A stretch of 45,939 nt of DNA, taken from positions 1 through 45,939 of the forward strand of contig PWHN01000070.1 of assembly GCA_003554945.1 (NCBI GenBank), written 5' to 3'. Below the pieces are notes generated by a model. The model saw only the letters and a list, made by a program, of their open reading frames with translations, had not been told where the DNA came from and did no database searches. Origin of the DNA: a bacterium. GTDB taxonomy: Bacteria; T1Sed10-126. Both the position numbers and the translations under genes were made by a program. This document shows, piece by piece, positions 2,915 to 45,939 of this stretch. Numbering within the stretch: the stretch's first letter is position 1; each line of letters begins with the position of its first letter.

Positions 2915-4372
2915 ATGGAAGAACATTCGATCGAGATAAGAATCGTGGGGGATTCGGGGCCTTTTTCACGACTTGGCAAAAGTATTGGTTATCACCTTAT
3001 TGCCGACGAGGCTGAATTTCTGGTCGACTGTGGGGGACCGGTCTTTCAGATGCTTGGTGAGCAGGGATTAGAGCGAATCGACGGTATAGTAGCAACCCAC
3101 ACCCACGAGGACCACAAGCGCTGGTTCACAGACATCTGTTTATTTAACAAATTTCCCGGGACGACCGACGAACCAATAAACCTCTTAGCCAGCCGCCGGA
3201 TTTTGGAAGATTACCGCCACTGTTCGGCAACGGCCCTGGAGCAAACATTGGGGCCGGATTCCAGGCGAATAGTTAACTACAGTTTTGAAGATTTTGCCCG
3301 ACCGATGCTCATTGCTCCAGAACCAAAATACCGGATAGTCAAGCCGGAACACCCCAAAAACAAAGACGACTGGCAGGTTGTCGACCAGAGAGGAAATATT
3401 CTGGGGCCGGAGCAGGCGCGGGTGATTATCCCGGAGAAAGACGTGGCACGCCCACGGCTGCTTTTTAAGGACCCTGAGCTCAAAGAGTGGGTTGAACCGC
3501 AGGCCTTCTACTCTTTTGACGACCCATGTTTCTACGATCAGGAAACTTACACTCCCTATGAACACGAAAACGGTCTTAAAATTTATCCCTATAAAGCTCC
3601 CGCCTGGCACGGCCTGTTTGTGACCGCGATGATGTTTGAATTCAACGGCAACCGGATATTCTTCAGCAGTGACACCCGCTACGATCCGGAGCTGTGGAAA
3701 GAACTAACCGAAAAGCTTGAACCAGCGGAGAGTCCTGACGCCGGCGCGGCGTCGGAAAATACCGTCTTAAAGAATAGAGATATCAACGACTATATCGAAC
3801 GTATCTGGAGTCAACGCCGCTACAAGAGGGCGATGGAATTTTACGATAAAGATAACAATCTGCCGGTAATCCACGACGTCTCGGGCCCCTGGGCCCGGGT
3901 GCATACTGACTACCGGGAGATTGAGGACCAGACGGGGGAGCTGCTTCTGACCCACAGCCCCGACGTCTTCACCACCCTGCACCCGATGGCTCACGTGGGC
4001 AAAACTTTCGTAATTAAAGAGAATGAATTCTACGAAAAAAACACCGGGGGCGACCTGTTTAGACCGACGGCTGACTGCTACTACAAGAACTTCCAGAATT
4101 TTTTTGTCGGATACGAAAATAACGAGGGGGGCCATTTCCTGGTGAAAACTCCGCGGGACACTTTTGATATAAAAGAGCAACCGGCGGACGAAGACAGAGT
4201 TCTTAAACAGATCCAGTTATACGAAGATATAGACGGTCGTTACTTCCCTTATTTCAAAGAGAAAAATGCTGAGTATTACAAAAGACCGGATGGCCGTGTG
4301 GAAAGGCTTTTTCATCATAAAGATGGTTCCAAAGGAACAATAGTAAAAGATCTGCGTCCCAATTTGCAGTAA
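2915..4372 (+). CDS. Metallo-beta-lactamase-fold hydrolase, unknown substrate
   Basis: This is a 485-residue protein with the metal ligands of the metallo-beta-lactamase fold. The H-T-H-E-D-H motif spans residues 62-67. A third-strand His is H232 in A-W-H-G-L-F, the bridging Asp is D253 in S-S-D-T-R-Y, and the last His is H320 in V-I-H-D. This full set supports an active two-metal centre. Residues 70-230 form a large insertion and 340-485 an extra C-terminal region, so it is much longer than RNase Z or small MBL enzymes. There is no signal peptide. AAGGAG lies just upstream of ATG 2915. It sits between two cNMP-binding genes and a K+ channel. A phosphodiesterase acting on cyclic nucleotides would fit, but neither sequence nor context proves it. 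Confidence 0.8.
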   Translation: MEEHSIEIRIVGDSGPFSRLGKSIGYHLIADEAEFLVDCGGPVFQMLGEQGLERIDGIVATHTHEDHKRWFTDICLFNKFPGTTDEPINLLASRRILEDYRHCSATALEQTLGPDSRRIVNYSFEDFARPMLIAPEPKYRIVKPEHPKNKDDWQVVDQRGNILGPEQARVIIPEKDVARPRLLFKDPELKEWVEPQAFYSFDDPCFYDQETYTPYEHENGLKIYPYKAPAWHGLFVTAMMFEFNGNRIFFSSDTRYDPELWKELTEKLEPAESPDAGAASENTVLKNRDINDYIERIWSQRRYKRAMEFYDKDNNLPVIHDVSGPWARVHTDYREIEDQTGELLLTHSPDVFTTLHPMAHVGKTFVIKENEFYEKNTGGDLFRPTADCYYKNFQNFFVGYENNEGGHFLVKTPRDTFDIKEQPADEDRVLKQIQLYEDIDGRYFPYFKEKNAEYYKRPDGRVERLFHHKDGSKGTIVKDLRPNLQ

Positions 4373-4395: not shown

Positions 4396-5412
4396 GTGCA
4401 GGAAAAACCGATAAACATAAAGGGGCAAATTTTTAGACTGGGATTACTGCTGAGCGGGATCATTTTAATAGGAACTCTCGGTTATTTTACTATTGAGGGA
4501 TGGAACCTCTCCGACTCTCTTTTCATGACAGTCATAACGATGTCCACCGTTGGATACGGGGCCGTTGACGACCTCTCCCAGGCCGGCCAATTTTTTACAA
4601 TTTTCCTGAACATTGGGGGAATTGCCCTCTATTCCACTGCTTTTTTTAAAATTGTAAGTATTGTTAGTGCAGGTTCAATTATTGAGATGATGCAGAGGGA
4701 TAAGATGGACAAGAAAATCGCCAAGCTGGAAAACCACTATATAATCTGCGGCTGTGGTGAAACGGTTAAGCATATAGCTCACGAACTATCTGACGTCAAA
4801 CTAACGTTTGTAATCGTCTGTCCCGACAACGAAGAGCTTGAGCAGAGAAACTTAGGGGATTACTACCATATATTCGGCGAGCCAGACAAAGAAAAAGTGT
4901 TAGAAAAAGCCGGAATTGAGAGAGCCCGGGGGATTTTCTGCGTTATGCCGGAAGACCGTGAAAATATACTTATAACCCTGACCGCTCGTTCATTAAACCC
5001 AAAACTGCAAATCACCACCAGTTGTGTAAGTGAAGAGGCTCATTCGAAGTTTCAAAAAGCGGGCGCCGATAGGATAATTTTTGCTGACCGGATCGGCGGA
5101 CTACGTATGGTTTCCGAGATGATACGTCCGGACGTGGTAACTTTCCTCGACAAGATGCTGCGCGAGAGCGGTGGGATCAGATTCGAGGAAATAGCGGTGG
5201 CTGAAAATTCACAACTAATTGGTCAGCCGATGACCTGCTGTGCCCCTGACAGACATTTCCAGGTTACCGTAGTTGCTGTGCTTAATAAAGAGGGAAAATA
5301 CGAATACAATCACCTCAGCATGGACGACGATCGTACCATAGAGGCGGGAGAAAAATTAGTAGTGATCGGCAGAAGTGAAGAAATAGAAAAAATGCGAGAA
5401 TATGCTTCTTGA
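4396..5412 (+). CDS. Two-TM potassium channel with RCK (TrkA-N/TrkA-C) domain
   Basis: The product is 338 residues. TM1 (about 11-33), a pore helix and the K+ selectivity filter T-V-G-Y-G (51-55), then TM2 (62-92), form one pore unit, as in MthK-type channels that assemble as tetramers. Residues 114-235 are an RCK/TrkA-N Rossmann domain starting at H-Y-I-I-C-G-C-G-E. Its Gly-rich loop is of the channel type rather than the classical GxGxxG. Residues 255-336 are a TrkA-C domain. RCK domains gate such channels in response to Ca2+, nucleotides or cyclic di-AMP. The ligand here cannot be read from sequence. The GTG start follows GAAGG. No cNMP-binding domain is fused, although two are encoded just upstream. 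A role in K+ efflux or osmotic balance is likely. Confidence 0.9.
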   Translation: MQEKPINIKGQIFRLGLLLSGIILIGTLGYFTIEGWNLSDSLFMTVITMSTVGYGAVDDLSQAGQFFTIFLNIGGIALYSTAFFKIVSIVSAGSIIEMMQRDKMDKKIAKLENHYIICGCGETVKHIAHELSDVKLTFVIVCPDNEELEQRNLGDYYHIFGEPDKEKVLEKAGIERARGIFCVMPEDRENILITLTARSLNPKLQITTSCVSEEAHSKFQKAGADRIIFADRIGGLRMVSEMIRPDVVTFLDKMLRESGGIRFEEIAVAENSQLIGQPMTCCAPDRHFQVTVVAVLNKEGKYEYNHLSMDDDRTIEAGEKLVVIGRSEEIEKMREYAS

Positions 5413-5413
5413 A

Positions 5414-5493
5414 GTGGGAAAGTGGGAAAGCGGGAAAGTGGGAAAGCGGGAAAGTTAGAAAGCGGGAAAGTTAGAAAGTGGGAAAGTTAGAAA
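5414..5493. repeat. Tandem array of ten 8-bp units
   Basis: Ten consecutive octamers of the types GTGGGAAA, GCGGGAAA and GTTAGAAA start one base after the TGA of the K+ channel gene. The order is mixed, not a simple doubling. A three-unit array of the same octamers starts directly after the stop of the Crp gene at 20141. GCGTAGTTGCGGG follows, and similar AACCCGCAAC text lies beside the related 7-mer array at 42276. Confidence 0.9.
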
Positions 5494-5546
5494 GCGTAGT
5501 TGCGGGTTGCGAGTTTAAATCTAAGACAAGAAACCTGAAATCGGGA

Positions 5547-5596
5547 GACCGTAAACATGGATTCCGGCTCGGAGGCCGGAATGACGTCAAGTTCAA
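5547..5596. repeat. GGATTCCGG hairpin module, copy 1
   Basis: ATTCCGG at 5561-5567 pairs with CCGGAAT at 5576-5582 around a short CTCGGAGG-type loop. The surrounding 50 bases are repeated at 18847-18896 with about five changes. A third copy near 24980-25091 is split by another element, and a half copy ends at 29264. This is a dispersed intergenic hairpin of the kind seen in many bacterial genomes. Confidence 0.85.
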
Positions 5597-5611
5597 GATC
5601 AACTTCCCCCC

Positions 5612-5775
5612 ACTCTCTGATGTCCTCGTAATCGAGGGAGAGAGGAATTAAATCAAGGGCAACTTCCCCACTCTCTGATGTCCTCGTAATCGAGGGAGAG
5701 AGGAATTAAATCAAGGGCAACTTCCCCACTCTCTGGTGTCCTCGTAATCGAGGGAGAAAGGAATTATCAAGGACA
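5612..5775. repeat. Three tandem 58-bp repeats, each with a hairpin
   Basis: Units start at 5612, 5670 and 5728 (period 58). The first two are nearly identical. The third diverges in its last 10 bases. A partial tail of the same unit precedes the array. Each unit can fold as CTCTC, six bases, CCTCG, loop TAAT, CGAGG, GA, GAGAG. The array lies between convergent genes (K+ channel on plus, GLUG protein on minus), where stacked hairpins could block read-through. Together with the octamers and the hairpin module it fills the gap 5413-5821, and I see no gene there. Confidence 0.85.
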
Positions 5776-5821
5776 AGATCGGGAGCGAAGGGACGAGAGT
5801 CGGTGGGCAGTTGTGGCGGCT

Positions 5822-13909: not shown

Positions 13910-13982
13910 TAAAGTTATATACGTTAAAAAAAGTAACAGAGCAAAAAAATGGTTGGGTGAAAATAATTAGATGTACGACTAA

Positions 13983-14316
13983 CTAAAGTTTTGCGTTTTG
14001 CGGGCAAGATAGTCCATATCTTATTTTCTCATTCTCCCGAGCACTCAATCGAGAGTGATAAGGAGTGAGTTTACGCTATTCCAGAGCCACCTGCAAATGT
14101 TTTTCTCATTCTCGGTTGCCCTCCGGGCAACCTCCGAGGTATAGCCGGTTGCAAACCAGGCCCTCATGGCCTGCAACCGGCTATAATTCCGAAAAACACC
14201 TGCAGGTAGCTCCCTGTATGCTGATAAAGAGACATCTTAACTATTTTGTTACGGTGGGAAGGTGTATGCTCGATTGAGTGCTCGGTCCTCAGAACGAGGA
14301 AACTGCAAAACTTTAG
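13983..14316. repeat. Nested palindromic element (outer arms)
   Basis: CTAAAGTTTTGC at 13983-13994 is exactly mirrored by GCAAAACTTTAG at 14305-14316. Between them lies the complete element 14037-14285 with its own terminal repeats and inner hairpins. The whole 334 bases can therefore fold as palindromes within palindromes. It fills most of the 13910-14390 gap. I see no gene there. Confidence 0.75.
14037..14285. mobile_element. MITE-like palindromic element with 17-bp terminal inverted repeats
   Basis: The ends are CCGAGCACTCAATCGAG and its exact complement. Inside, GAGCCACCTGCAAATG and CACCTGCAGGTAGCTC pair imperfectly. ATAGCCGGTTGCA (14141-14153) pairs with TGCAACCGGCTAT (14172-14184), and GGTTGCCC pairs with GGGCAACC. 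No transposase is encoded. The same terminal sequence bounds elements at 94, 24996 and 45911. This looks like a small non-autonomous mobile element, though mobility is inferred. Confidence 0.65.
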
Positions 14317-14390
14317 TGTATGAATTTTTTTAGTAAATCAGCGGGTTGTATACAGAACTTAAAAAATCAAATTAATGGGGTTTATCAGCT

Positions 14391-14864
14391 ATGAAACTTA
14401 TTACATTCAATAAATTGCCAGGTCTGGTGATAGTCATACTTTTGCTGGGCGGATGTGCTTTGATCGCACCGAACGGCGAGTATCCAGAACGGCCGGGCCA
14501 GGAGCTAATGGACGAACTGGAGAGAGCTTACCGCCAGGGAAATTCTCGGGCAATAGCCAATCTGATACACCCTGACGCAGAAATTCCCGTAGCGGACTTA
14601 AGAGCTGATCAAAGAGAAGTTTTTCGCAGGCGGCATGGTATAAGGTTGGACATTCACTCCCGTATTTATCGATATGACGAAGGACAGGACTATGCACGGG
14701 TTGAGACGAACTGGAATCTGAGCTGGAGGAAAGAGAACGTGGAGGTTGAAAAAAGGCGAGGTGAAACTGATTTTGAGTTACGTCTTTACAATAACCAGTG
14801 GCTTATATACAATCAATCAAGAGACAGTTTGCTCGGTGATCTTGAACCGGGAAGGACGGAATAA
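14391..14864 (+). CDS. Lipoprotein with NTF2-like domain
   Basis: The product is 157 residues. It has a short basic start, a hydrophobic stretch and the lipobox L-G-G-C with Cys22 as the lipidated residue, so it is a predicted membrane lipoprotein. After cleavage, residues 38-150 follow the NTF2/SnoaL pattern: an N-terminal helix (ELMDELERAYRQGN), then long strands (I-H-S-R-I-Y-R-Y, Y-A-R-V-E-T-N-W, F-E-L-R-L). The pattern resembles residues 501-637 of the FecR protein encoded just upstream. GGGG lies about 11 bases before the ATG. It is followed after 6 bases by the adenylate cyclase, so the two are probably one transcript. It could bind the periplasmic CHASE2 domain of the cyclase and modulate it, which is inference from position and location. 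Confidence 0.8.
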   Translation: MKLITFNKLPGLVIVILLLGGCALIAPNGEYPERPGQELMDELERAYRQGNSRAIANLIHPDAEIPVADLRADQREVFRRRHGIRLDIHSRIYRYDEGQDYARVETNWNLSWRKENVEVEKRRGETDFELRLYNNQWLIYNQSRDSLLGDLEPGRTE

Positions 14865-14870
14865 TAACGG

Positions 14871-17135
14871 GTGAACAACATTAGCAAAAAAACCTCTATA
14901 TCCCTGGCAATCATTGCAGCAGTAGTCATTGCTGTTTCACTGGGCTGGGTGCTGGCCCGGGGAACAACTTTTGGAGAAACTATTGAACGGATAGAATACC
15001 CCCTGATCGACCTACGCCACCGCTGGTATGTCCAACGCGCTGACGTAGCCGACGAAATTGTATTGCTCGTAATCACTGACGAGTCGCTCACCCGTTTTGA
15101 AGACAACCTGGGCCGCTGGCCCTGGCCCCGACGAGTCTGGGGGGCAATAATACAACACCTCAGTGAAGCACGCGCAGTCAAATTTGATGTTGGATTCTGG
15201 GAAAAAAGTCCGCTGGAAGTTAGCCCACAAATAATGGATAGAATGCGCCAGCAACTCGCACAGCTCCAGCGCTATCAAACCACTCAGCCCGAGAGGGCAA
15301 AAGAAATTTACCAGCAACTTGAGGCCAGTTTTAATGATCTTGCAGTGTCAGACGACGTTTTGCTGGGCAATGCGACTGCAGAGGCCGGCCAGGTAGTTCA
15401 CAGCCTGACAACCGAAGAGCTCGTTCCCGGCGTCGATACGCTGCCCCCTTTAGCCGAACAAATCCTTAACCGTTATGGCTGGCAGTTGAGTGGCGATGTT
15501 AAAGCAGCCGCCCGCGGATCAATGGTTGTCCCGATCGAGGAACTGGCTGAAATCGCGAATCAAATCGCCCATATTGATTTTTTCCCCGACCAGGACGGTA
15601 TAGCTCGACGAGTCCAACCGTTTGTCGGCTCGCAGTTACAGCAAGGAGACCGTCTCTACGTTCCGTTGCTGGGTATAGCCGGACATCTCGGCGAGATGAC
15701 TCGGGAAGCAGAATACAAGAGCCGTCACTTGAAAATCGGTGACCACCGCCTGCCAATCGATCACCGGGGCAAAGTTCCCATACGTTATCGAGGTAAATTC
15801 CGGGAGTATACCGCCATACCTGTTGAAGCAATCTTAGAGCCACTAATAACCGGGGCTGACCCAGTTTATAAACCGGAGTGGTTTGAGGACCGGGTGGTGC
15901 TAATTGGTGCAACAGCGGCCGGGCTATTTGACCTGCAGGCGACGCCCACTGACCCGGCCCAGCCCGGGATGGGGATACACGCCGCCCTCTACGAGATGCT
16001 CAGAACAGGCGACTATCTGGAACCCGAACGACCGGAACAAACCGTATTAAGCGTAATTAGTGTCGGGCTCCTGGTTGGAATAATCACTATTTATTTTAGT
16101 CCCCTGCTCGGCTTACTGGCTGTGCTCGGCGTCCTGGGACTGCTGTTTGTGGCAGGGTTTCAGCTTTTCTCTTTCGGCTACACCATCAACCTTTCCCTGC
16201 CCCTATTGACCGGCATACTTGTCTACGGCGGCCTGACAACCCATAACGTATTTTACGAACAACAGCAGAAAAAGTTTATCCGCGATGCCTTTCAACACTA
16301 CCTGCCCGAGTCGGTACTGGAAACTATTCTTGCTGACCCCGACCGGCTGGTGCTTGAGGCTCGAAGACGCAAAGTAACGGTTTTATTCATGGATATCGCC
16401 GGCTTTACAAGCCTGAGTGAAGGATTGGAAGCAACAGAGGTCGCAAATAGATTGAATGAACTGCTGACCGGGTTGAGCCGCTGTGTCTTCAAACACGAGG
16501 GAATCATAGATAAATTTATCGGCGACGAGCTAATGGCCGAGTTTGGACTGCTGGAAGTCGAGCCCCCCGAACAGGAGACACGAGCCTGCCGGGCGGCCGA
16601 CGACATGTTGAAAGAGCTGGCAAACTACAACGAACGCAATCCCGATGATCCACTGGACATCCGAATTGGAATGAATACCGGCTGGGTTGCAGCCGGTAAC
16701 ATGGGCTCAGAGGACCTGTTCGATTATACAGTTATCGCTGACGCTGTTAACCTTGGTTCGCGACTTGAGGGAGTAAACAAAGTTTACGGGACCAAATGCA
16801 TGTTAAGCGGTGAAACTGCAAAAGGACTGCCGGAGGAGGCACTTATCCGCGAAATCGACCGGGTCCGGGTAAAAGGACGCGACGAGCCGGTCACTATACA
16901 TCAGTGGCTGGGCTGGCGCGATGAGGTTGGAAAGGATAAAATAGAGGCAGCTGAAATTTACGAAAAAGCACTCAGTTGTTACCGGGCGAAAAAATTTGAA
17001 GAGGCACTCAACGAGCTAACGAAACTTCCAGACGATGATTCTGCGGCGAACTGGTTGAGTGATCGCTGCCGGGAGCTGATTGAAGAACCACCGGCAGACG
17101 ACTGGGAGCCGGTAACAACACTAACATCGAAATAA
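14871..17135 (+). CDS. CHASE2-domain class IIIb adenylate cyclase
   Basis: It makes cyclic AMP from ATP at the inner membrane. The product is 754 residues. TM1 is at about 9-29, a periplasmic CHASE2 sensor domain at 35-385, three TMs at 393-460, and a cytoplasmic class III cyclase domain at 500-665. The catalytic set is complete: metal Asps D508 (F-M-D-I-A-G-F) and D552 (K-F-I-G-D), spaced 44 apart as in the family; purine-selecting Lys K548; N627 and R631 (V-N-L-G-S-R) for the transition state. The second purine-selecting residue is T620 instead of Asp, the mark of class IIIb cyclases, several of which respond to bicarbonate. The last 80 residues resemble a TPR-like tail. The start is GTG 14871. 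It is the only cyclase in the window and the probable source of ligand for five cNMP-binding proteins. Confidence 0.92.
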   Translation: MNNISKKTSISLAIIAAVVIAVSLGWVLARGTTFGETIERIEYPLIDLRHRWYVQRADVADEIVLLVITDESLTRFEDNLGRWPWPRRVWGAIIQHLSEARAVKFDVGFWEKSPLEVSPQIMDRMRQQLAQLQRYQTTQPERAKEIYQQLEASFNDLAVSDDVLLGNATAEAGQVVHSLTTEELVPGVDTLPPLAEQILNRYGWQLSGDVKAAARGSMVVPIEELAEIANQIAHIDFFPDQDGIARRVQPFVGSQLQQGDRLYVPLLGIAGHLGEMTREAEYKSRHLKIGDHRLPIDHRGKVPIRYRGKFREYTAIPVEAILEPLITGADPVYKPEWFEDRVVLIGATAAGLFDLQATPTDPAQPGMGIHAALYEMLRTGDYLEPERPEQTVLSVISVGLLVGIITIYFSPLLGLLAVLGVLGLLFVAGFQLFSFGYTINLSLPLLTGILVYGGLTTHNVFYEQQQKKFIRDAFQHYLPESVLETILADPDRLVLEARRRKVTVLFMDIAGFTSLSEGLEATEVANRLNELLTGLSRCVFKHEGIIDKFIGDELMAEFGLLEVEPPEQETRACRAADDMLKELANYNERNPDDPLDIRIGMNTGWVAAGNMGSEDLFDYTVIADAVNLGSRLEGVNKVYGTKCMLSGETAKGLPEEALIREIDRVRVKGRDEPVTIHQWLGWRDEVGKDKIEAAEIYEKALSCYRAKKFEEALNELTKLPDDDSAANWLSDRCRELIEEPPADDWEPVTTLTSK

Positions 17136-17157
17136 CTTCTGAATTATGGTGATATGA

Positions 17158-17703
17158 ATGGATCTCAAAAAAATTGGTAAAGAACTATTTTCCGGGCCGG
17201 ACAGCGAAAGCGAAAAACAGCTGGAAGTGCTGAAAAATTGTCCCCTGTTTGAGGGGTTGCCGGGAAAAGAACTAAAAAATTTGCAAGAGTTGCTTCACGA
17301 ACGTAATTTTGATCACGACGAAATCATTGTGAACCAGGGGGAACCGGCCAGCGCTATGTTCCTGATTGAATCGGGCGAAGTGCTGATTTATAAACCACAG
17401 CCGGACGGTGAACCGCGCGAAATTACTCGTTTGAAAGCCGGTGATTTTTTCGGAGAGCTGGCAATCTGCGAGGAACACCGGCGCAGCGCCAGCAGCGTCG
17501 CCCTAATCCCGACAAAAGTGCTGGTGCTCTTTCGTCAGGAATTCCTCTCCTACGCCCGCCAGAACAAGGAGGCTGGATTTACAATTTTAGTCAACCTGGC
17601 CGCCATGGTTGGCACGCGACTTAAAAATATTAACGACCGCTTTTTTGAGTTGATAGAGGAAAATAAAAAACTGCGAAACCAGCTTGAAAAAAACGAAGAA
17701 TGA
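17158..17703 (+). CDS. Stand-alone cyclic-nucleotide-binding domain protein
   Basis: The product is 181 residues with one cNMP-binding domain at about 27-145. The phosphate cassette is complete: F-G-E-L-A at 98-102, then R-S-A at 109-111. The start (about 1-20) is polar, and the last 25 residues (NDRFFELIEENKKLRNQLEK) form a short coiled coil that could mediate pairing. There is no DNA-binding domain. It lies 22 bases after the adenylate cyclase, so it is a prime candidate for its direct readout, and its 3' end overlaps the AI-2E-type transporter by four bases (ATGA). Co-translation with that exporter suggests that it may regulate the exporter, but no fusion or other evidence supports a contact. 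Confidence 0.85.
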   Translation: MDLKKIGKELFSGPDSESEKQLEVLKNCPLFEGLPGKELKNLQELLHERNFDHDEIIVNQGEPASAMFLIESGEVLIYKPQPDGEPREITRLKAGDFFGELAICEEHRRSASSVALIPTKVLVLFRQEFLSYARQNKEAGFTILVNLAAMVGTRLKNINDRFFELIEENKKLRNQLEKNEE

Positions 17704-18770
17704 ATCAAGCAAAAGCGTTAACCCTATCTTCCCGACAGTTAATTACCGTCCTCTACTACGCCTTGCCTCTCGTTTTTCTGGCTCTTGCGCTCTATTTTAT
17801 ACCGGTGCTCTACCACCTGGTGCTGATGTTTCTATTTTCTTACTTGATAAGCCACCTGTTTGTGCCGCCAATTAATTTCCTTGTCTGTCAAAATTTTTCC
17901 AGAAATTCAGCGACACTGACTGTCTTCCTGTTTATACTGCTAATTGCTACAGCGCTGGTCTGGGCCTATGCTCCCGCCACCTGGAACCAGGTTGTTGAAC
18001 TGCAGGAACAACTGGCTGATGGTGATTTAATGGAACTCTCCCGAAATTACGCCGCGCGAACGGAAAATTTAATCCCATTTCTTCCTCAAGGCAGTCTAAC
18101 CGCACGCATTGACGAACTCTACTCCTGGCTTTTCGGCCAGATGACCGGTATGTTAGCAAACGTGTACATCGTAATTCAGTACCTGATAATTGTTCCTTTT
18201 ATCGCCTTTTTCCTCGTTCGAGACCGTGAGCGACTGCGCCGCAGTGCCGTACAAAAAATACCTAACGCTTTTTTTGAAATGTTTTTTAACATATACTACA
18301 AAATTGACCAGCAAGTGGGAGAATATATGCGCGGCTTGATAATAGAAGCGCTTATCGTCGCGGTGCTTTCAATAATCGGTCTGGTTGCCCTTGGAGTCCC
18401 TTATGCTATAGTTATTGGCCTGTTTGCGGGGCTGGCAAATATTGTTCCTTACTTCGGTCCGATTGCCGGAGCGATACCGGCCGTGGCAATAAAATTTTTA
18501 GAAACTGGAGAAATTTATCCAACTGCACTTGTTGCCCTTGTATTCTTAATAATTCAGGTGCTGGATAACTTATGGTTGAAACCTTTTGTGTTTTCCCGTG
18601 GAATGAAGATGCATCCTCTGCTTGTATTTTTGGTAGTGGTAGGCGGTGGCCAGCTTGCGGGTATCCCGGGAATGATACTCGGAATCCCACTTGCGGCAAG
18701 CTTTTTAGTAATTTTCCGGGAATTTTACTGGGGGGTCCGCAACTACTCGTTTGTTGAAACGTTACATTAA
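17700..18770 (+). CDS. AI-2E family (PerM/TqsA-like) membrane transporter
   Basis: The product is 356 residues with the family layout of about seven or eight TMs. A helical pair lies at 20-60, a helix at 68-90, a soluble segment at 95-145, then five C-terminal helices. Family signatures are visible: G-L-A-N-I-V-P-Y-F-G-P-I-x-G-x-I-P near residue 245, and L-x-P-F-V-F-S-R-G-M-K-M-H-P with a G-I-P-G-M-I-L-G-I-P-L motif near the end. Members export small molecules: autoinducer-2 in TqsA, and Na+ (Li+)/H+ antiport in some halophile relatives. The substrate here is unknown. In a salt-adapted organism, ion export is as plausible as signal export. The start overlaps the stop of the cNMP-binding gene (ATGA). 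Confidence 0.88.
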   Translation: MNQAKALTLSSRQLITVLYYALPLVFLALALYFIPVLYHLVLMFLFSYLISHLFVPPINFLVCQNFSRNSATLTVFLFILLIATALVWAYAPATWNQVVELQEQLADGDLMELSRNYAARTENLIPFLPQGSLTARIDELYSWLFGQMTGMLANVYIVIQYLIIVPFIAFFLVRDRERLRRSAVQKIPNAFFEMFFNIYYKIDQQVGEYMRGLIIEALIVAVLSIIGLVALGVPYAIVIGLFAGLANIVPYFGPIAGAIPAVAIKFLETGEIYPTALVALVFLIIQVLDNLWLKPFVFSRGMKMHPLLVFLVVVGGGQLAGIPGMILGIPLAASFLVIFREFYWGVRNYSFVETLH

Positions 18771-18846
18771 TGAGATCGCCCCCGGGTAGATGGTTTCGGA
18801 GAGGGGCGGAGGTAAAAAGTTAAAAGTCTGAAAGAGAGAAATCGTA

Positions 18847-18896
18847 GATCGTAACCGTGGATTCCGGCTCGGAGGCCGGAATGATGTCAAATTCAA
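18847..18896. repeat. GGATTCCGG hairpin module, copy 2
   Basis: ATTCCGG (18861-18867) and CCGGAAT (18876-18882) form a hairpin. The 50 bases match copy 1 at 5547-5596 at about 90 percent. A degenerate AAAGTT-rich run precedes it at about 18811-18840, as the octamer array does for copy 1. The remainder of the 18771-18982 gap holds only the promoter below. Confidence 0.85.
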
Positions 18897-18931
18897 TGGT
18901 CGCTTGCCCGTAATGACAAACTAAACGGCAT

Positions 18932-18959
18932 TTGACAGTAGGCGCTAAACAGTTACCAT
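18932..18959 (+). promoter_or_regulatory. Candidate sigma-A promoter
   Basis: TTGACA at 18932-18937 is a perfect -35 box. TACCAT at 18954-18959 follows after 16 bases as a weak -10 and resembles the TACCCT and TATCCT boxes near 9690 and 9785. It would drive the two cNMP-binding genes at 18983 and 19466 independently of the cyclase. Confidence 0.4.
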
Positions 18960-18982
18960 TACCAATTCTGGGAGGCTGAATG

Positions 18983-19447
18983 ATGTCAAAAAAAATAGTT
19001 GCAAAACTAAAACAGATTGAAATATTTAGCGACGTTTCGGAGGAGGCACTGGAAGTAATTGTTGACAACAGTGAAATCGAGCGTTTTAAAAATGAAGAAA
19101 TTATTTTTAACGAAGGTGACGAATCAGACAAGAACTTATATGTGATTATAAACGGAACTGTTGCCGTACTCAAAAGCATGCGCCAGGGAGAAAGAGAGGT
19201 CGGACTTTTAAAAGAGGGGAAATATTTTGGGGAATTTGCATTATTCAGCCGGGAACCCAGACAGGCAACAATTGAAGCCCGTGAGACCACTACTCTACTA
19301 AAGATACCTTTCTACGCGCTGGAATCAATGAAAAAGGAGCATTCCCAGGCAGTCTTTAAAATTTATGAAAATATGTTCAGGCAGCTTGCCGGACAGTTCA
19401 GAGCAATGGCCGACAAAGCAGAAAAAACTCAATTTTGGTTTAATTAA
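18983..19447 (+). CDS. Stand-alone cyclic-nucleotide-binding domain protein
   Basis: I prefer ATG 18983, 8 bases after GGGAGG, over ATG 18980. The product is 154 residues and is almost entirely one cNMP-binding domain (about 10-125). The phosphate-binding cassette is Y-F-G-E-F-A-L at 81-87, followed by P-R-Q-A-T at 92-96, keeping the Glu and Arg that contact the cyclic phosphate. The C-terminal 25 residues are helical and end in Trp-Phe-Asn. There is no output domain. It is followed after 18 bases by a full Crp/Fnr regulator with a similar domain, so the two may have arisen by duplication or form a mixed dimer. Whether it binds cAMP or cGMP cannot be read with confidence. Confidence 0.85.
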   Translation: MSKKIVAKLKQIEIFSDVSEEALEVIVDNSEIERFKNEEIIFNEGDESDKNLYVIINGTVAVLKSMRQGEREVGLLKEGKYFGEFALFSREPRQATIEARETTTLLKIPFYALESMKKEHSQAVFKIYENMFRQLAGQFRAMADKAEKTQFWFN

Positions 19448-19465
19448 CCGCAGGAGGTAGTGCTG

Positions 19466-20140
19466 ATGGAAAAACATTTGCAAGAGCTTGATATTTTTGC
19501 AGGATTACCGGAAGAAGCCTACGAAAAAATAATAGAAGTAGCGGATCAAATAGAGCTGAGCGAAGAGGAAGTCCTCTTTCATGTGGCTGAACCGGGCGAT
19601 AAGCTTTATGTAATCGTGGACGGGCTTTTAAAAGTAAGCCGGCGGGATCCACTAAGTGAAAGGGAAAAAACCCTGGCCTTATTAAGTAAAGGAGAAATTG
19701 TAGGTGAAATGGCCTGCATGGCCAACCAGGGGCGCAGTGGGACAGCAACCGCCGTTCATGATTCCAGACTACTTGCCTTCACGAAAGAGGCCTTTGTCGA
19801 TCTGTTTGAAAAATACTCCCAGATTGGTTTGAACCTCTTCAATACGTTGAGTGAACGGCTGCTGCAGGTCGATAACGAACTGTTCAACTTTGCCTTCTTA
19901 AACATTCCCGGACGGCTGGTGACCTGTCTCTTCCGCCTGGCAGAAAAGTTTGGCCGCGAAGTTGAGGACGGAGTTAAGATTGAAGTGCAGCTTACACACG
20001 AACAACTGGCCAGTATTGTCGGAACCAACAGGGAAACAATCACCCGTTATCTGACGCAGCTTCGAGAAATCGCTGCATTGAGGTGTGAGAGTCAGAATAT
20101 TGTCCTGCTGGACCGCGGTAAATTAAAACAATGGTTGTGA
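19466..20140 (+). CDS. Crp/Fnr family transcription regulator
   Basis: The product is 224 residues from ATG 19466, 8 bases after AGGAGG. The upstream GTG and CTG codons are too close to it. The cNMP-binding domain spans about 8-120, the dimer helix 120-145, and the winged helix-turn-helix 150-222. The helix-turn-helix is clear: L-T-H-E-Q-L-A-S-I-V-G-T-N-R-E-T-I-T-R-Y-L at 176-196, with the N-R-E-T recognition pattern of Crp. The phosphate cassette is slightly altered: V-G-E-M-A-C, then R-S-G-T (90-93), with Gly where Ala is usual, so ligand affinity may differ. No Fnr cysteines are seen. It is the only clear DNA-binding output among the five cNMP-binding proteins and is a likely cAMP receptor. 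An octamer array starts right after its stop. Confidence 0.88.
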   Translation: MEKHLQELDIFAGLPEEAYEKIIEVADQIELSEEEVLFHVAEPGDKLYVIVDGLLKVSRRDPLSEREKTLALLSKGEIVGEMACMANQGRSGTATAVHDSRLLAFTKEAFVDLFEKYSQIGLNLFNTLSERLLQVDNELFNFAFLNIPGRLVTCLFRLAEKFGREVEDGVKIEVQLTHEQLASIVGTNRETITRYLTQLREIAALRCESQNIVLLDRGKLKQWL

Positions 20141-20164
20141 GTGGGAAAGTTAGAAAGTTGGAAA
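20141..20164. repeat. Three 8-bp units of the octamer family
   Basis: GTGGGAAA, GTTAGAAA and GTTGGAAA follow each other immediately after the TGA at 20138-20140. They use the same alphabet as the ten-unit array at 5414. The array lies between convergent genes (Crp on plus, rsmE on minus). Confidence 0.75.
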
Positions 20165-20174
20165 GTTTGGTGAG

Positions 20175-20894
20175 TTATTGTGAGGCGAGGTTGTTGGTGT
20201 AATGAAGCCAGAGAGTAGTCAGGGCAAGGGCGGCGGTTCCCGAGCGAAGAACGGCGTCGCCAAGTGAAACAGGCGTGGCATCATTTTTCTTGATAAACTC
20301 CTTCTCTTCTTCTGAAAAATCCCCCTCGGGTCCAACCAGAAAAGCCACGTTGGCGGGACTTTTTGAAAAGGCTACTTCCGGCGCCTGACCGGTAGGTTCT
20401 CCCCAGAAAAGTTTGTCTATTTCTTCAAAAGCCCCGGGGAAACGTTTAAACTCAAGCGGCTCAAAAATTTCAGGCGTCCAGTCGCGCCCGGTGATCCGGG
20501 TAGCATCAAGAGCGATGCGACGCCAGCGATCTCGTTGTTTAGAGGGATTGTTGGGACGCCGAACGGTGTGTTCGGAAATCAGGGGCAGGAAGTGAGTAAT
20601 CCCAAGCTCGGCACCTCGCTTGATAGAATCCTCAATTTTTTTCTTACGGGTAAGCGACTGCAACAGCCAGAGTGAGTAGCAGGGTTTGTTTGCCGGGCGA
20701 GTTGACAAAATTTCAAACTGCAGAGCTGGTTCAAGAGCCGTCAATTCAGCCTCGGCCACCCGCTCGGGTCCTGCTATTTCCAGTTTTTCACCGGCTGACA
20801 AACGACGCACATTAGCAAGGTAATGGCTCCAGAACGGATCGTCAAGCCTGAGGAAACCTGTGTCGGGCAGAGAATCATCCAGGTAAATTTTCAA
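20175..20894 (-). CDS. rsmE: 16S rRNA (uracil-1498-N3)-methyltransferase RsmE
   Basis: It methylates U1498 of 16S rRNA in the 30S subunit using S-adenosylmethionine. The product is about 239 residues, the usual length, with an N-terminal PUA-like domain and a C-terminal SPOUT domain with the trefoil-knot motifs L-V-G-P-E-G-D-F-S-E-E-E and L-G-D-A-V-L-R-S-G-T-A-A-L. In most relatives the second motif reads L-R-x-E-T-A, so the Glu is Gly here. TTG 20894 lies 8 bases after AAGGAG. The alternative GTG 20903 overlaps that motif. It is the last gene of the dnaK run, 35 bases after dnaJ. prmA, often present between dnaJ and rsmE in Firmicutes, is absent. Confidence 0.9.
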   Translation of the reverse strand: MKIYLDDSLPDTGFLRLDDPFWSHYLANVRRLSAGEKLEIAGPERVAEAELTALEPALQFEILSTRPANKPCYSLWLLQSLTRKKKIEDSIKRGAELGITHFLPLISEHTVRRPNNPSKQRDRWRRIALDATRITGRDWTPEIFEPLEFKRFPGAFEEIDKLFWGEPTGQAPEVAFSKSPANVAFLVGPEGDFSEEEKEFIKKNDATPVSLGDAVLRSGTAALALTTLWLHYTNNLASQ

Positions 20895-20929
20895 ACAAAG
20901 CACTCCTTGTTGCAGCGGGGATAAAATTA

Positions 20930-22057
20930 CTACCCGACAAAGGCGTCGCGTACTTTTTCAAAAATTGATCGATCACGGGGCTGTACTTCCTCGCCCCTAA
21001 GTTCAGCCAGCTCCTCAAAAACTTCTTTTTCCTCTTCGCTGAGATTTGTAGGTGTGATCACCTTTACCTGGACGTGAAGATCTCCGCGCCCACGTCGATT
21101 GAGATGATGAGCACCGCGGCCGTTAATAACGAAAACCTCACCGGTCTGTGTCCCCTGGTCTATTTCAAGTTCTTCAACCTCATCCTCGTCAAGCAGAGGC
21201 ACCTCGACAACACCACCCAGGGCGGCCTGAACAAAACTAATAGGTATCTGGGTATAAAGGTCAGCACCGTCGCGCTTAAAGCGCGGGTGGGAGTTAACAT
21301 TAATCTCAACGTAGAGGCTTCCCGGGCCGGCCTCGCCGGCTTCACCTTCGCCGTCTATTCGTATCCGATGTCCGGTTTCAACGCCGGCCGGCACATCAAC
21401 CTCGAGAGTCTTTGTGCGCCTGATTCTACCGGCGCCATTACATTTATCACAGGGGTCAGTAATAACGTGGCCGCGACCTTTACAGCGTGAACAGGTCTCG
21501 GTCAGGGTGAAGAAACCACGTGAGGCGGAGACCTTACCCCGCCCCTCACAGTCGGGGCAGGTTTTCTTGTCGGCCGAATCCTTGGCCCCACTTCCCCCAC
21601 AGACGTCACATTCTTCTCGTTTTCTCAATTCTACTTCTTTCTGACAGCCAAAAGCAGCCTCCACGAGGTCAAGGTCAAGACGCATACGAAGGTCACTACC
21701 ACGCCGGGAACGGCGGCCGCCACGTCGACCGGCGCCGCCAAAAAATTGAGAAAAGAGATCACCAAAGCCCATTTCCTCAAAGATATCCCCGATATCGGCT
21801 GAGCGATAGGAGCGACCACGGGCGGCCGCGCCCTGTACTCCCTCCTTGCCGAAACGATCGTAGCGAGCGCGCTGCTCGGCATCGCTAAGAACCTCATAAG
21901 CCTCAGAGATTTTTTTAAACTTTTCCTCGGCTTCCGAGTCATCCGAGCGATCGGGATGATAATCGAGAGCCCTCTGTTTGAAGGCCTTCTTAATTTCCTC
22001 CTCGGAAGCGTCGCGGGAGACACCCAGAATTTCGTAGTAGTCGTCGGAGTCGGTCAT
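20930..22057 (-). CDS. dnaJ: Chaperone DnaJ (Hsp40)
   Basis: It is the co-chaperone that delivers substrates to DnaK and stimulates its ATPase. The product is 375 residues. The J domain (1-72) has H-P-D at 34-36. A Gly/Phe/Arg-rich linker spans about 75-125 and includes an unusually Arg-rich stretch ([11 protein letters not shown]). Four zinc-binding repeats follow ([32 protein letters not shown]), then the substrate-binding C-terminal domains. All eight cysteines are present. AGAGG lies 4 bases before the ATG. It starts 9 bases after dnaK and is certainly in the same operon. Confidence 0.97.
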
Positions 22058-22066
22058 GATACCTCT

Positions 22067-23974
22067 TTACTCTTCCTCGTCGACTACTTCGTAATCGGCT
22101 TCTTCAACATCCTCGGTGGTCCCGGCACCTTGACCGCCGGCAGCACCGGCGCCCGGTTGACCGGCAGCAGCTCCCGGTCCAGGCTGCCCCTGTTGAACCG
22201 CCTGCTCTTCATAGAGCTTCTGGCTGATAACCTGGGAGGCCTGGGTGAGCTGTTCCATGGCTTCTCTAATCTCGTCCGCTTCTTCAGCTTCTTCAGCCGT
22301 CTCCTCCAGCTTCTCGATTGCCTTCTCAACGTCCTCTTTTTCTTCGTCAGAAAGCTCATCACCATGTTTCTCAAGCAGTTCCTCGGTCTGATAGACAAGC
22401 TGATCAGCGTGGTTTCTGGCCTCAACAAGTTCACGAAAACGCTTGTCCTCTTCGGCGTGTTTTTCAGCTTCTTCCTGCATCCGCTCAATCTCATCCTCGG
22501 AAAGATTGGTAGAACCGGTAATTTCAATTTCCTGTTTTTCACCGGTTCCTTTGTCTTCGGCTGAGACGTTCAGTATACCGTTGGAATCAATATCAAATGT
22601 CACCTCAATCTGAGGAGTGCCTCGAGGTGCCGGTGGTATCCCGGTTAAATGGAAGCGACCGAGCGACTTATTATGGGCCGCCAGGTCACGTTCACCCTGG
22701 AGAACATGAATTTCCACCTGAGTTTGATTGTTTTCAGCGGTAGTGAAGATCTCAGACTTTTTGGCCGGAATAGTGGTGTTCTTCTCGATCAAGGGTTGGA
22801 AGACACCGCCCTGTGTTTCAACTCCGAGCGAAAGCGGAGTAACGTCAAGCAAGAGAATGTCGTCGACATCTCCGCCAAGAACCCCGGCCTGAATAGCGGC
22901 TCCGCGAGCCACAACTTCGTCGGGGTTTACAGTTTTGTTGGGTTCCCGGTTGAAAAATTCCGACACAGCTTCAGCCACTGCAGGAACCCTGGTCGAACCT
23001 CCAACCAATATAACTTCGTCAATATCGGAAACTGAAAGGTCTGCTTCACCCACGACCTCCCGACAGATATCAATTGTCTTATCTATGTAACCCTGGATCA
23101 TGTGCTCGAAGTCAGCTCGGGTAAGTTCCAGCTCCAGATGCTTGGGGCCGGACTGGTCAGCAGTGATATAGGGCAAGTTAATATTGGTCTTTTTGGCTGA
23201 GGAGAGCTCGACTTTAGCCTCCTCTGCAGCATCGCGAAGACGCTGCAAAGCCATCGGATCATCCCGAAGATCAACCCCGTGTTTGCTTTTGAATTCGTCG
23301 GCCATCCAATCGATAATTTCATCGTCGAAATCATCGCCACCGAGTTTAGTATCGCCGTGAGTACTTTTGACCTCGATAACACCATCGCCTATATCAAGAA
23401 CGGAAATATCAAAAGTTCCGCCACCGAGATCATAGACGGCGACATTCTGTTCCCGGTCATCGTTAAGCCCGTAAGCAAGAGCAGCGGCCGTGGGCTCGTT
23501 AATAATACGTTCGACGTGGAGGCCGGCGATCTGACCGGCATCTTTTGTTGCCTGGCGCTGACTGTCGTTGAAGTAAGCGGGAACAGTAATTACTGCTCTT
23601 TTAACTTCACGACCGAGATAATCCTCAGCTTCTTCTTTCAGCTTCTGAAGAATAAAGGCACTAATCTGCTCGGGACTATAGGTGTCACCGCGCAGTTCAA
23701 CCTCGTAATCTTCGCCCATGTGGCGTTTTATTGAAGCCACGGTATTCTCGCTGTTAGTAACAGACTGACGTTTCGCTGGAGCGCCAACCAGCTTCTCGCC
23801 GTCATCATTAAAGGCCACGACCGAAGGCGTTGTCCGATTACCTTCTGAATTTTCAATCACCTTGTCATCGCCACCTTCAAAAATAGCGACAACACTGTTG
23901 GTCGTGCCAAGGTCAATACCGATGATTGGTCCTTCAACATCGGTTTCCTGTTGTTTGTCTCCTTTTTCAACCAT
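22067..23974 (-). CDS. dnaK: Chaperone DnaK (Hsp70)
   Basis: It is the ATP-dependent Hsp70 that binds exposed hydrophobic segments of client proteins in the cytoplasm. The product is 635 residues. The nucleotide-binding domain has G-I-D-L-G-T-T-N-S (19-27) and the usual phosphate-2 motif [10 protein letters not shown]. The substrate domain and helical lid follow, and the end [12 protein letters not shown] is typical. The start gives about 15 extra residues ([15 protein letters not shown]) before the first strand. It is supported by GGAGG 9 bases before ATG 23974, and no later start has such a site. The neighbours are grpE (116 bases upstream) and dnaJ. Confidence 0.98.
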
Positions 23975-24090
23975 TGTAAGATACCTCCGATTAAATTAGA
24001 TTTTTGTCACTCAATATATTTCTGATAATTTAACACCAATATTCGCAGATTGTGATTTCAAAACTACAGCTGGCTGTGTCAAACCGTACG

Positions 24091-24687
24091 CTATTCACCT
24101 TCTTCGGTATCTTCGGTCGCTTTCTCCCCGGTCTCAGCGGGGACACCAACTTTCACTGAAGCGGGCCGTAAAATACGATCATAAAGCTTATATCCTTTTT
24201 GAAAAACTTCCAGCACAGTCTGTTCATCAAGGTCCTCACGATCTTCCCGCATCATACCTTCGTGTTTTTCGGGATCAAAAGTCTCCCCCTCAGCCTCGAT
24301 GGGTTCGACATTGTATCGATCCAGTAAATCCTTTAGCTGATCGTAAATCATTTCAATACCACGAGCAACCTCGTCATTGTCAAAGTCAATAGAATCCAGA
24401 GCTCGCTCAAAGTTGTCAATGACCTCAAGCAGCTCGGACAGCAGATCAGCATTGGCGTATTTTTTAAATTTTTCCTCTTCGCGTTGAAATCGCTTACGCA
24501 GGTTGTCAAGGTCTGCCGTTCGACGGTAGTATTTTTCCCGAAATTCGGCGGCTTCCTCTTCTAATTCAACGAGCTTTTCCTTTTCTATTTGCAAGATTTC
24601 TTCACTCTCTTTTCCAGAATCTTTTTCTAACTCCGCGTCTTTCTCGACGTTAGAATCTTCTTTTACAGTTTGACTCTCCTGGGACAT
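24091..24687 (-). CDS. grpE: Nucleotide exchange factor GrpE
   Basis: It releases ADP from DnaK. The product is 198 residues. The very acidic N-terminal 60 residues lead into the long dimer-forming coiled coil (EEEAAEFREKYYRRTADLDN and following). The four-helix region follows, then the beta-wing with F-D-P-E-K-H-E-G-M and the end strand G-Y-K-L-Y-D-R-I-L-R-P-A-S-V-K-V. AGGAGG lies 10 bases before ATG 24687. It is first in the grpE-dnaK-dnaJ-rsmE run. hrcA, which precedes grpE in most Firmicutes, is missing, and no CIRCE operator is visible upstream. Confidence 0.95.
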   Translation of the reverse strand: MSQESQTVKEDSNVEKDAELEKDSGKESEEILQIEKEKLVELEEEAAEFREKYYRRTADLDNLRKRFQREEEKFKKYANADLLSELLEVIDNFERALDSIDFDNDEVARGIEMIYDQLKDLLDRYNVEPIEAEGETFDPEKHEGMMREDREDLDEQTVLEVFQKGYKLYDRILRPASVKVGVPAETGEKATEDTEEGE

Positions 24688-24858
24688 AGTTTTTCTGCCT
24701 CCTGTACATATTTCAGCTATTCAGCCTGAAAAGCTCTTTAACGAGCTACCCCCGTAAAGGGAAGACTTACTACGTGGTATAAAAGCTAATAATCTTATCA
24801 AATAAAAACCTTTATATCGAGCCTCTTGATTGATTCACCAAAATCTTACGAGTTCGCT

Positions 24859-24880
24859 ATTGCCGGGCTTGACCCGCAAT
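24859..24880. repeat. ATTGC-CGGG hairpin of the GGATTCCGG family
   Basis: ATTGCCGGG, loop CTTGA, CCCGCAAT forms a short hairpin. It begins the repeat block 24859-25095 that fills most of the gap between grpE and mltG (24688-25183). No gene is visible in the gap. Confidence 0.6.
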
Positions 24881-24895
24881 CCATTTTAAGTTCTC

Positions 24896-24923
24896 AGTTT
24901 CCAGTTTATAGTTTCCAGTTATA
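24896..24923. repeat. Four 7-bp units
   Basis: AGTTTCC, AGTTTAT, AGTTTCC and AGTTATA lie in tandem, followed by TTTTAACCCGTAA. The same heptamers and the same follower occur as a ten-unit array at 42276-42345. Confidence 0.8.
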
Positions 24924-24979
24924 GGTTTTAACCCGTAATTCGCACCTCATAACCCGTAACAAGTTAAAATTCAAGATGG

Positions 24980-25091
24980 ATTCCGGATCGCGCTCCCGAG
25001 CACTCAATCAAATTGTAAGAACAATCTCTTACTTCTTGGTGTTAATTATTCATAGCACTTGCGATTGAGCGCTCGGTCGCTTGTCCGGAAT
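24980..25091. repeat. GGATTCCGG hairpin interrupted by a palindromic element
   Basis: ATTCCGG at 24980-24986 and CCGGAAT at 25085-25091 are the two arms of the dispersed hairpin. Here they are about 100 bases apart because the CCGAGCACTCAATC element (24996-25076) lies in the loop. Confidence 0.7.
24996..25076. mobile_element. Short MITE-like palindromic element in a hairpin loop
   Basis: The left end CCGAGCACTCAATC and right end GATTGAGCGCTCGG are inverted repeats with one mismatch, sharing their sequence with the 249-bp element at 14037. The 81-bp body has no reading frame. Confidence 0.6.
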
Positions 25092-25183
25092 GACGTTGAT
25101 AGGTTTTGTTGATTTCCAGTTATGCTCAATCATTACCTATAAGTAAACTAACCTGTCCGAAATTTATTCCAAAAAAATACCTG

Positions 25184-45754: not shown

Positions 45755-45760
45755 TTAGCC

Positions 45761-45911
45761 CGAATTATGCACGAAAACTTCGTTTTCGAACATAATTCGC
45801 CTCTACGAGGTAGCATTAAAGCTTTATTTGGCAAATAAAGCAAATTAAAATAAGCATGCCAATTTTACAGGGTGTTTTTTCCCTCCGCATGGCAACAGCT
45901 TGAGTGCTCGG
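45761..45911. repeat. 150-bp dispersed palindromic repeat, right copy (inverted)
   Basis: This is the inverted counterpart of 94-243. It has the CGAATTATG/CATAATTCG hairpin at 45761-45799 with a perfect inner CGAAAAC/GTTTTCG stem, the GCTTTATTTG/CAAATAAAGC hairpin at 45821-45841, and TTGAGTGCTCGG at the right end. The matching terminus on the other side has decayed (TAGCATTAAAGC). The window ends 28 bases later in CCCCTACGGGCGAATAATTC text, which looks like another repeat. Confidence 0.85.
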
Positions 45912-45939
45912 TGCGCCCCTACGGGCGAATAATTCACGA

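Follow-up and report, generated by a model that had tools for sequence, protein, structure and literature searches.

A constant 12-bp hairpin stem recurs in palindromic repeats of unrelated bacterial phyla and at ribosomal RNA helices

What kind of element is the gene-less inverted repeat found at four places on the 45,939-nt contig PWHN01000070.1 (assembly GCA_003554945.1, bacterium T1Sed10-126), and how could it have spread? The original prediction for this stretch of DNA, which was analyzed over its full length and is called the window here, saw in it the pattern of miniature inverted-repeat transposable elements (MITEs), whose shared ends are moved by an enzyme encoded elsewhere and have captured different cargoes. 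Our analysis points in another direction. With somewhat better than even confidence, we favor a selfish palindromic DNA element without genes, which spreads by replacing or extending resident stem-loops.

The constant part of the element is a 12-bp stem made of the 12-letter arm CCGAGCACTCAA and its partner TTGAGTGCTCGG. In the genome to which the window belongs (G000; 2.2 Mb, 121 contigs, 93.5% complete), 37 exact matches to the arm were found versus none for a reversed-pattern control, so that the further copies expected from a genome-wide search do exist. When up to one mismatch was allowed, the whole genome gave 63 matches versus 18 in the control; few near-variants therefore exceed chance, suggesting that the arm sequence is either young or kept. 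All genomes are metagenome-assembled genomes (MAGs). Only exact matches were used to locate the arms, and thus diverged members are under-counted. None of 58 other genomes had more than one copy, and a literature search for the 12-mer gave no match. Most copies in the window's genome are the two arms of inverted-repeat units at about 20 places, with unit sizes of 24–29, 74–75, 81, 249–250 and 345 bp. The simplest unit is a hairpin of 24–30 bp with a loop of 0–6 nt, and 32 of the 68 units analyzed do not exceed 31 bp. No gene lies within any unit. The bodies between the arms are non-homologous between size classes (median best identity 0.60 vs 0.57 for shuffled sequences), and in this genome those tested were confined to units, which does not bear out the idea of captured chromosomal cargo.

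In the window, the exact arm is present at all four places reported earlier (94+, 14037+/14274−, 24996+ and 45900–45911−). The unit at 14037–14285 (249 bp) has two exact arms, which are extended to 17 bp (CCGAGCACTCAATCGAG/CTCGATTGAGTGCTCGG), and it folds as one long stem. The unit at 24996–25076 (81 bp) has an exact left arm and a right arm with one mismatch, TTGAGCGCTCGG; its body recurs at C41:18979–19059. Both units are intergenic and their bodies are non-homologous, and to this extent the elements do differ in body as proposed. The other two places are copies of one compound palindromic repeat, one truncated at the left contig end (1–249, plus strand; unit left arm 94–105, inner arm 184–192) and one at the right contig end (45755–45939, minus strand; unit arm 45900–45911). 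Positions 93–249 and 45755–45912 are 95–97% reverse-complementary, the inner arm of these units is a degraded TTGAGTGCT-ACC, and the assembly broke at these copies.

Both the 249-bp and the 81-bp unit sit inside larger palindromes, a nesting that was missed before. The 81-bp unit forms the tip of an outer hairpin shell, S2 (24977–25094; TGGATTCCGG .. CCGGAATGAC), which is a GTCATTCCGG..CCGGAATCCA hairpin. Shell S2 also occurs without the unit, as a 28-bp hairpin at 18858–18885 and 5558–5585 in the window, and elsewhere in the genome as a 44-bp form, GTCATTCCGGGCAAGCGACCGTAGGGAGCGCGACCCGGAATCCA; the latter reads GTCATTCCGGGCAAGCGA-CCGTAGG-GAGCGCGACCCGGAATCCA, whereas the unit-bearing form reads GTCATTCCGGACAAGCGA-CCG..CGG-GAGCGCGATCCGGAATCCA. 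The 249-bp unit fills the hairpin slot H1 of an outer palindromic shell, S5 (13982–14317; ACTAAAGTTTTGC .. GCAAAACTTTAGT), and two S5 paralogues (L105 and L109) have ATCCCGCCTCCAGCGGGA in that slot. Similarly, about 16 copies of a further shell, S4, carry a 19-nt hairpin, GATTGGCCTCCGGCCAATC, and 5 carry a 74-bp unit, with both fillings bordered by identical CTCATTCTT and TCCGAGG. The slot in S4 and S5 is thus filled either by the unit or by another hairpin, so that the unit substitutes for a hairpin there and does not interrupt one. Nesting is common in the window's genome and in Sungiibacteriota.

S4, S5 and an element nested inside the 249-bp unit (14085–14211, plus strand, core 14105–14191; covariance model R1, 103 bits; alignment A1) share one architecture, a three-way junction with the order outer stem, TCATTCTY, hairpin H1, TCCGAGGTAT, hairpin H2, ATAAATCCG, outer stem. 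In an alignment of 17 copies, both sides change in 29 of the 36 pairs, and 91.8% of cells pair, compared with 66% after shuffling and 35–39% after sliding. Counted over the shell stems, changes affect both sides in 165 cells versus one side only in 2, although these counts are of cells and not of events and four subfamilies supply much of the signal; 4 G-U pairs were found among ~557 paired cells. The scarcity of G-U intermediates fits upkeep of the palindromes at the DNA level better than selection on RNA. The covariance model found about 60 copies of the junction in the window's genome and no copy in G001, a genome of the same family; it found two in each of the two arm-carrying Nitrospirota genomes (L238 and L241 in G060; L239 and L242 in G062), where the linkers are conserved and the stems entirely different. 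The linkers TCATTCTC, CTCCGAGG and AAATCCG of the junction repeat are conserved, and its complementary stems are exchanged freely.

The arm is not confined to the window's genome. When 85,000 genomes were scanned for pairs of arms 30–60 nt apart, seven loci were found, which belong to five MAGs from other lineages. Searches of these whole genomes found 11 exact arms in Caldithrix RBG_13_44_9, 22 in Nitrospiraceae UBA665, 15 in Parcubacteria CG11, 22 in Sungiibacteriota NC_groundwater_251 and 2, forming one unit, in Nitrospirae S009_28, with 0 in the controls. Such a pair scan alone could yield stray hairpins, and it is the multicopy counts that exclude chance for four of the five genomes; the lone Nitrospirae S009_28 copy could be a coincidence. 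Units are 26–30 bp hairpins in Nitrospiraceae, Parcubacteria and Sungiibacteriota, with longer units of 66–97 bp in Parcubacteria and mainly 92–95 bp in Sungiibacteriota. In Caldithrix RBG_13_44_9 all units are 62–64 bp with the same arms (L149, L152, L153, L166, L170, L174, L178 and L211); their 38–40 nt bodies are mostly different, so constant in length and without clear homology. The Sungiibacteriota unit is enclosed by a second stem that varies from copy to copy yet remains complementary (108 Watson–Crick, 3 G-U and 6 unpaired). Also seen in this genome (L160–L200) was a multicopy element whose two stems are hypervariable yet complementary, and whose linkers (AATCAGGAG, GCATGGT, GGATGCTTAG and CGCTGG) stay constant. 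The distribution is patchy, and a hairpin-pattern scan matched 1 of 386 genomes, the window's own.

Units also lie in ribosomal RNA (rRNA) and 6S RNA genes. Parcubacteria CG11 has four such units, three within its 23S gene and the fourth within its 16S gene; three of the four are at native helices. In a covariance alignment, the arms of the unit at L151:3446–3542 fall on a native 13-bp 23S helix. Unrelated stems form this helix in five other genomes, with a conserved interior (..GGAAACCGAGTGTTAATAGCGCG..) and exterior. Since both helix strands were changed and the loop was kept, simple hairpin insertion is insufficient to explain this unit. The unit at L151:6275 is also on a native helix, and the 16S unit is on an apical helix. 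The unit at L151:2487 lies inside the 23S match, and our reading of its flanks is that it probably replaces a native helix as well. Units at a variable rRNA helix were found in Parcubacteria CG11 only and not for the window's genome. The sole unit of Nitrospirae S009_28 is the apical hairpin of 6S RNA. One could suppose that a protein- or RNase-binding stem is favored in transcripts and was selected independently in several RNAs, as the rRNA and 6S locations and the covarying junction with its conserved linkers would allow. However, the scarce G-U pairs point to DNA-level upkeep, identical arms occur across unrelated RNAs and intergenic repeats, and the distribution is patchy, all of which makes selected RNA structure very improbable as the explanation.

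Other repeats and genes were seen around these rRNA loci. The 23S gene of Parcubacteria CG11 holds three copies, 94–96% alike, of another palindromic repeat of ~100–114 bp (L151 ~2576–2678, 3985–4098 and 4808–4921). In Sungiibacteriota, the 16S gene at L155 1–3992 has an intervening stretch that contains a LAGLIDADG-like gene and a fragment of a group II intron; just beyond the 16S end there are a unit and another LAGLIDADG-like gene.

Classical MITEs, in which a DDE transposase with its gene elsewhere cuts the terminal inverted repeats, share several properties with the units: common inverted ends, no genes, many copies, differing bodies, unit-free paralogous sites and constant unit sizes (62–64 bp in Caldithrix, 74–75 bp in the window's genome). 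That part of the original prediction stands. However, no target-site duplication was detected, as 2-bp matches flank 7 of 68 units versus ~6 expected and matches of at least 3 bp flank none. The 93.5% complete assembly has no inverted arm pair 0.5–3 kb apart and no transposase gene between such ends, where one had been anticipated. Moreover, hairpins in S4 and S5 and an rRNA helix are replaced without interruption of the site, and the minimal form is just 24–30 bp. A MITE origin therefore appears unlikely to us. An open reading frame (L029; C105:872–1637, minus strand), which by eye we take to resemble an IS110-type (DEDD) transposase, lies ~0.7 kb from a partnerless arm copy.

A second class of enzymes, the Y1 (RAYT/TIRYT, HUH) transposases, moves hairpins of the repetitive extragenic palindromic (REP) type as single strands. 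The hairpin form and the intergenic multicopy spread of the units would suit such a mover, RAYT-linked palindromes are known from many phyla (PMC3733652), and the window's genome has five Y1 genes of 290–321 aa (L055–L059; contigs 103, 94, 16, 14 and 79). The arms border none of these five genes, and a Y1_Tnp match is missing in three of the five other carriers, including two with 22 arms each. The GTAG tag is present at 3 and the CGTC tag at 1 of 32 short units. We rejected RAYT/Y1 as the cognate enzyme for lack of linkage to the arms, and movement by Y1 transposases in general is improbable. Likewise rejected was a shared enzyme near units across genomes, since only unrelated housekeeping genes were found there, plus LAGLIDADG genes by the rRNA loci of two Patescibacteria. 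Spread by viruses or plasmids was dropped as well, with 0 matches in viral contigs and no credible plasmid match.

Is a mobile element needed at all? Template switching during replication, which is documented to create and maintain perfect stems in RNA genes (PMC8794818), could by itself copy stems and homogenize arms, and horizontal transfer could then spread the pieces. The replacement of both strands of the 23S helix with its native interior kept, and the near absence of G-U intermediates in the shells, are what this process would produce. On the other hand, it accounts neither for the dominance of a single exact 12-mer in unrelated phyla nor for transfer between hairpins without homology, and we consider it quite improbable as the sole cause. 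A different possibility is that stems as such are mobile: the 12-bp stem would be copied, both strands together, between stem-loops without the loop and across phyla, and would in this way have rewritten 16S and 23S helices and the 6S tip. We regard this as doubtful, though a possibility to be taken seriously.

For the selfish element that we favor, the following course can be drawn. The unit would replace or extend the tips of resident stem-loops, namely those of other palindromic repeats and, in certain bacteria, those of genes for rRNA and 6S RNA; further palindromes would then invade the unit and give nested structures of varying body and length, and the element would have been passed between phyla. 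Copying may take place at the DNA level, with a hairpin that is extruded or single-stranded as the intermediate, probably on the lagging strand, with polymerase template switching between the arms keeping them complementary.

Several observations weigh against this course. We found no enzyme and saw no movement, and template switching alone does not explain the crossing of phyla or the arrival of the first arm at an unrelated helix. Nesting is not universal: significant enclosing stems were detected in the 60-nt flanks of only 22 of 68 units, a test that misses partners further out in multi-branched shells and whose mismatched-pair control is confounded by paralogous shells, and the units of Caldithrix and some Nitrospiraceae loci appear free-standing. 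Within units, one-arm changes (52) outnumber matched changes (5), suggesting that correction from arm to arm is imperfect. The sole same-family genome compared, of another genus, has no copies.

Palindromes inserted in palindromes are known from other systems. Yeast mitochondrial GC clusters are one such case. Volvox organelle DNA contains nested short palindromic repeats (PMC2670323), which resemble the present units in that palindrome-in-palindrome insertion builds larger elements and no enzyme is known. Unlike these organellar repeats, the units described here are bacterial, have a stem common across phyla and enter rRNA helices. To our knowledge, Rickettsia palindromic elements (RPE) are confined to one lineage. 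They are gene-less palindromes on the order of ~100 bp that also occur in RNA genes (PMC2229807), with sequences unrelated to our units. REP sequences (GTAG/CGTC tags, RAYT/TIRYT; PMC3733652) are similar as multicopy, intergenic hairpins of 20–40 bp in several phyla without a gene of their own, but the present units lack a tag or a consistent Y1 gene, combine a constant arm with unrelated bodies, and replace stems of other hairpins and rRNA helices. The 23S intervening sequences and rRNA insertions of the candidate phyla radiation (CPR) (PMC11270868) likewise add stem-loops to rRNA genes, mostly where an existing stem-loop has its top or base; in our case the length and interior of the native helix are retained and both strands take the sequence of the repeat, and the stem is an interspersed repeat elsewhere. 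Stems generated by template switching (PMC8794818) share the both-sided changes and perfect pairing, but that process acts within one hairpin, whereas the present stem recurs in unrelated hairpins.

Mobile palindromes are thus already known; as far as we found, none combines a 12-bp stem identical in unrelated phyla with a position at the hairpin place of other palindromes and the takeover of rRNA helices. It seems that hairpin stems can themselves spread from one genome to another. If this is true, some of the compensatory changes seen in RNA stems could be due to the copying of stems at the DNA level and not to selection acting on RNA, with consequences for the interpretation of covariation, and a mechanism or enzyme acting on hairpin structure would be indicated.

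Two minor points concern the window itself. None of its sequence matched a known RNA family in Rfam 15 at or above the gathering score. Tandem repeats are present at 5396–5507 and 5608–5781, with an 8-bp unit (AAGTGGGA/AAGCGGGA) and a 58-bp unit in three copies, two of them identical.

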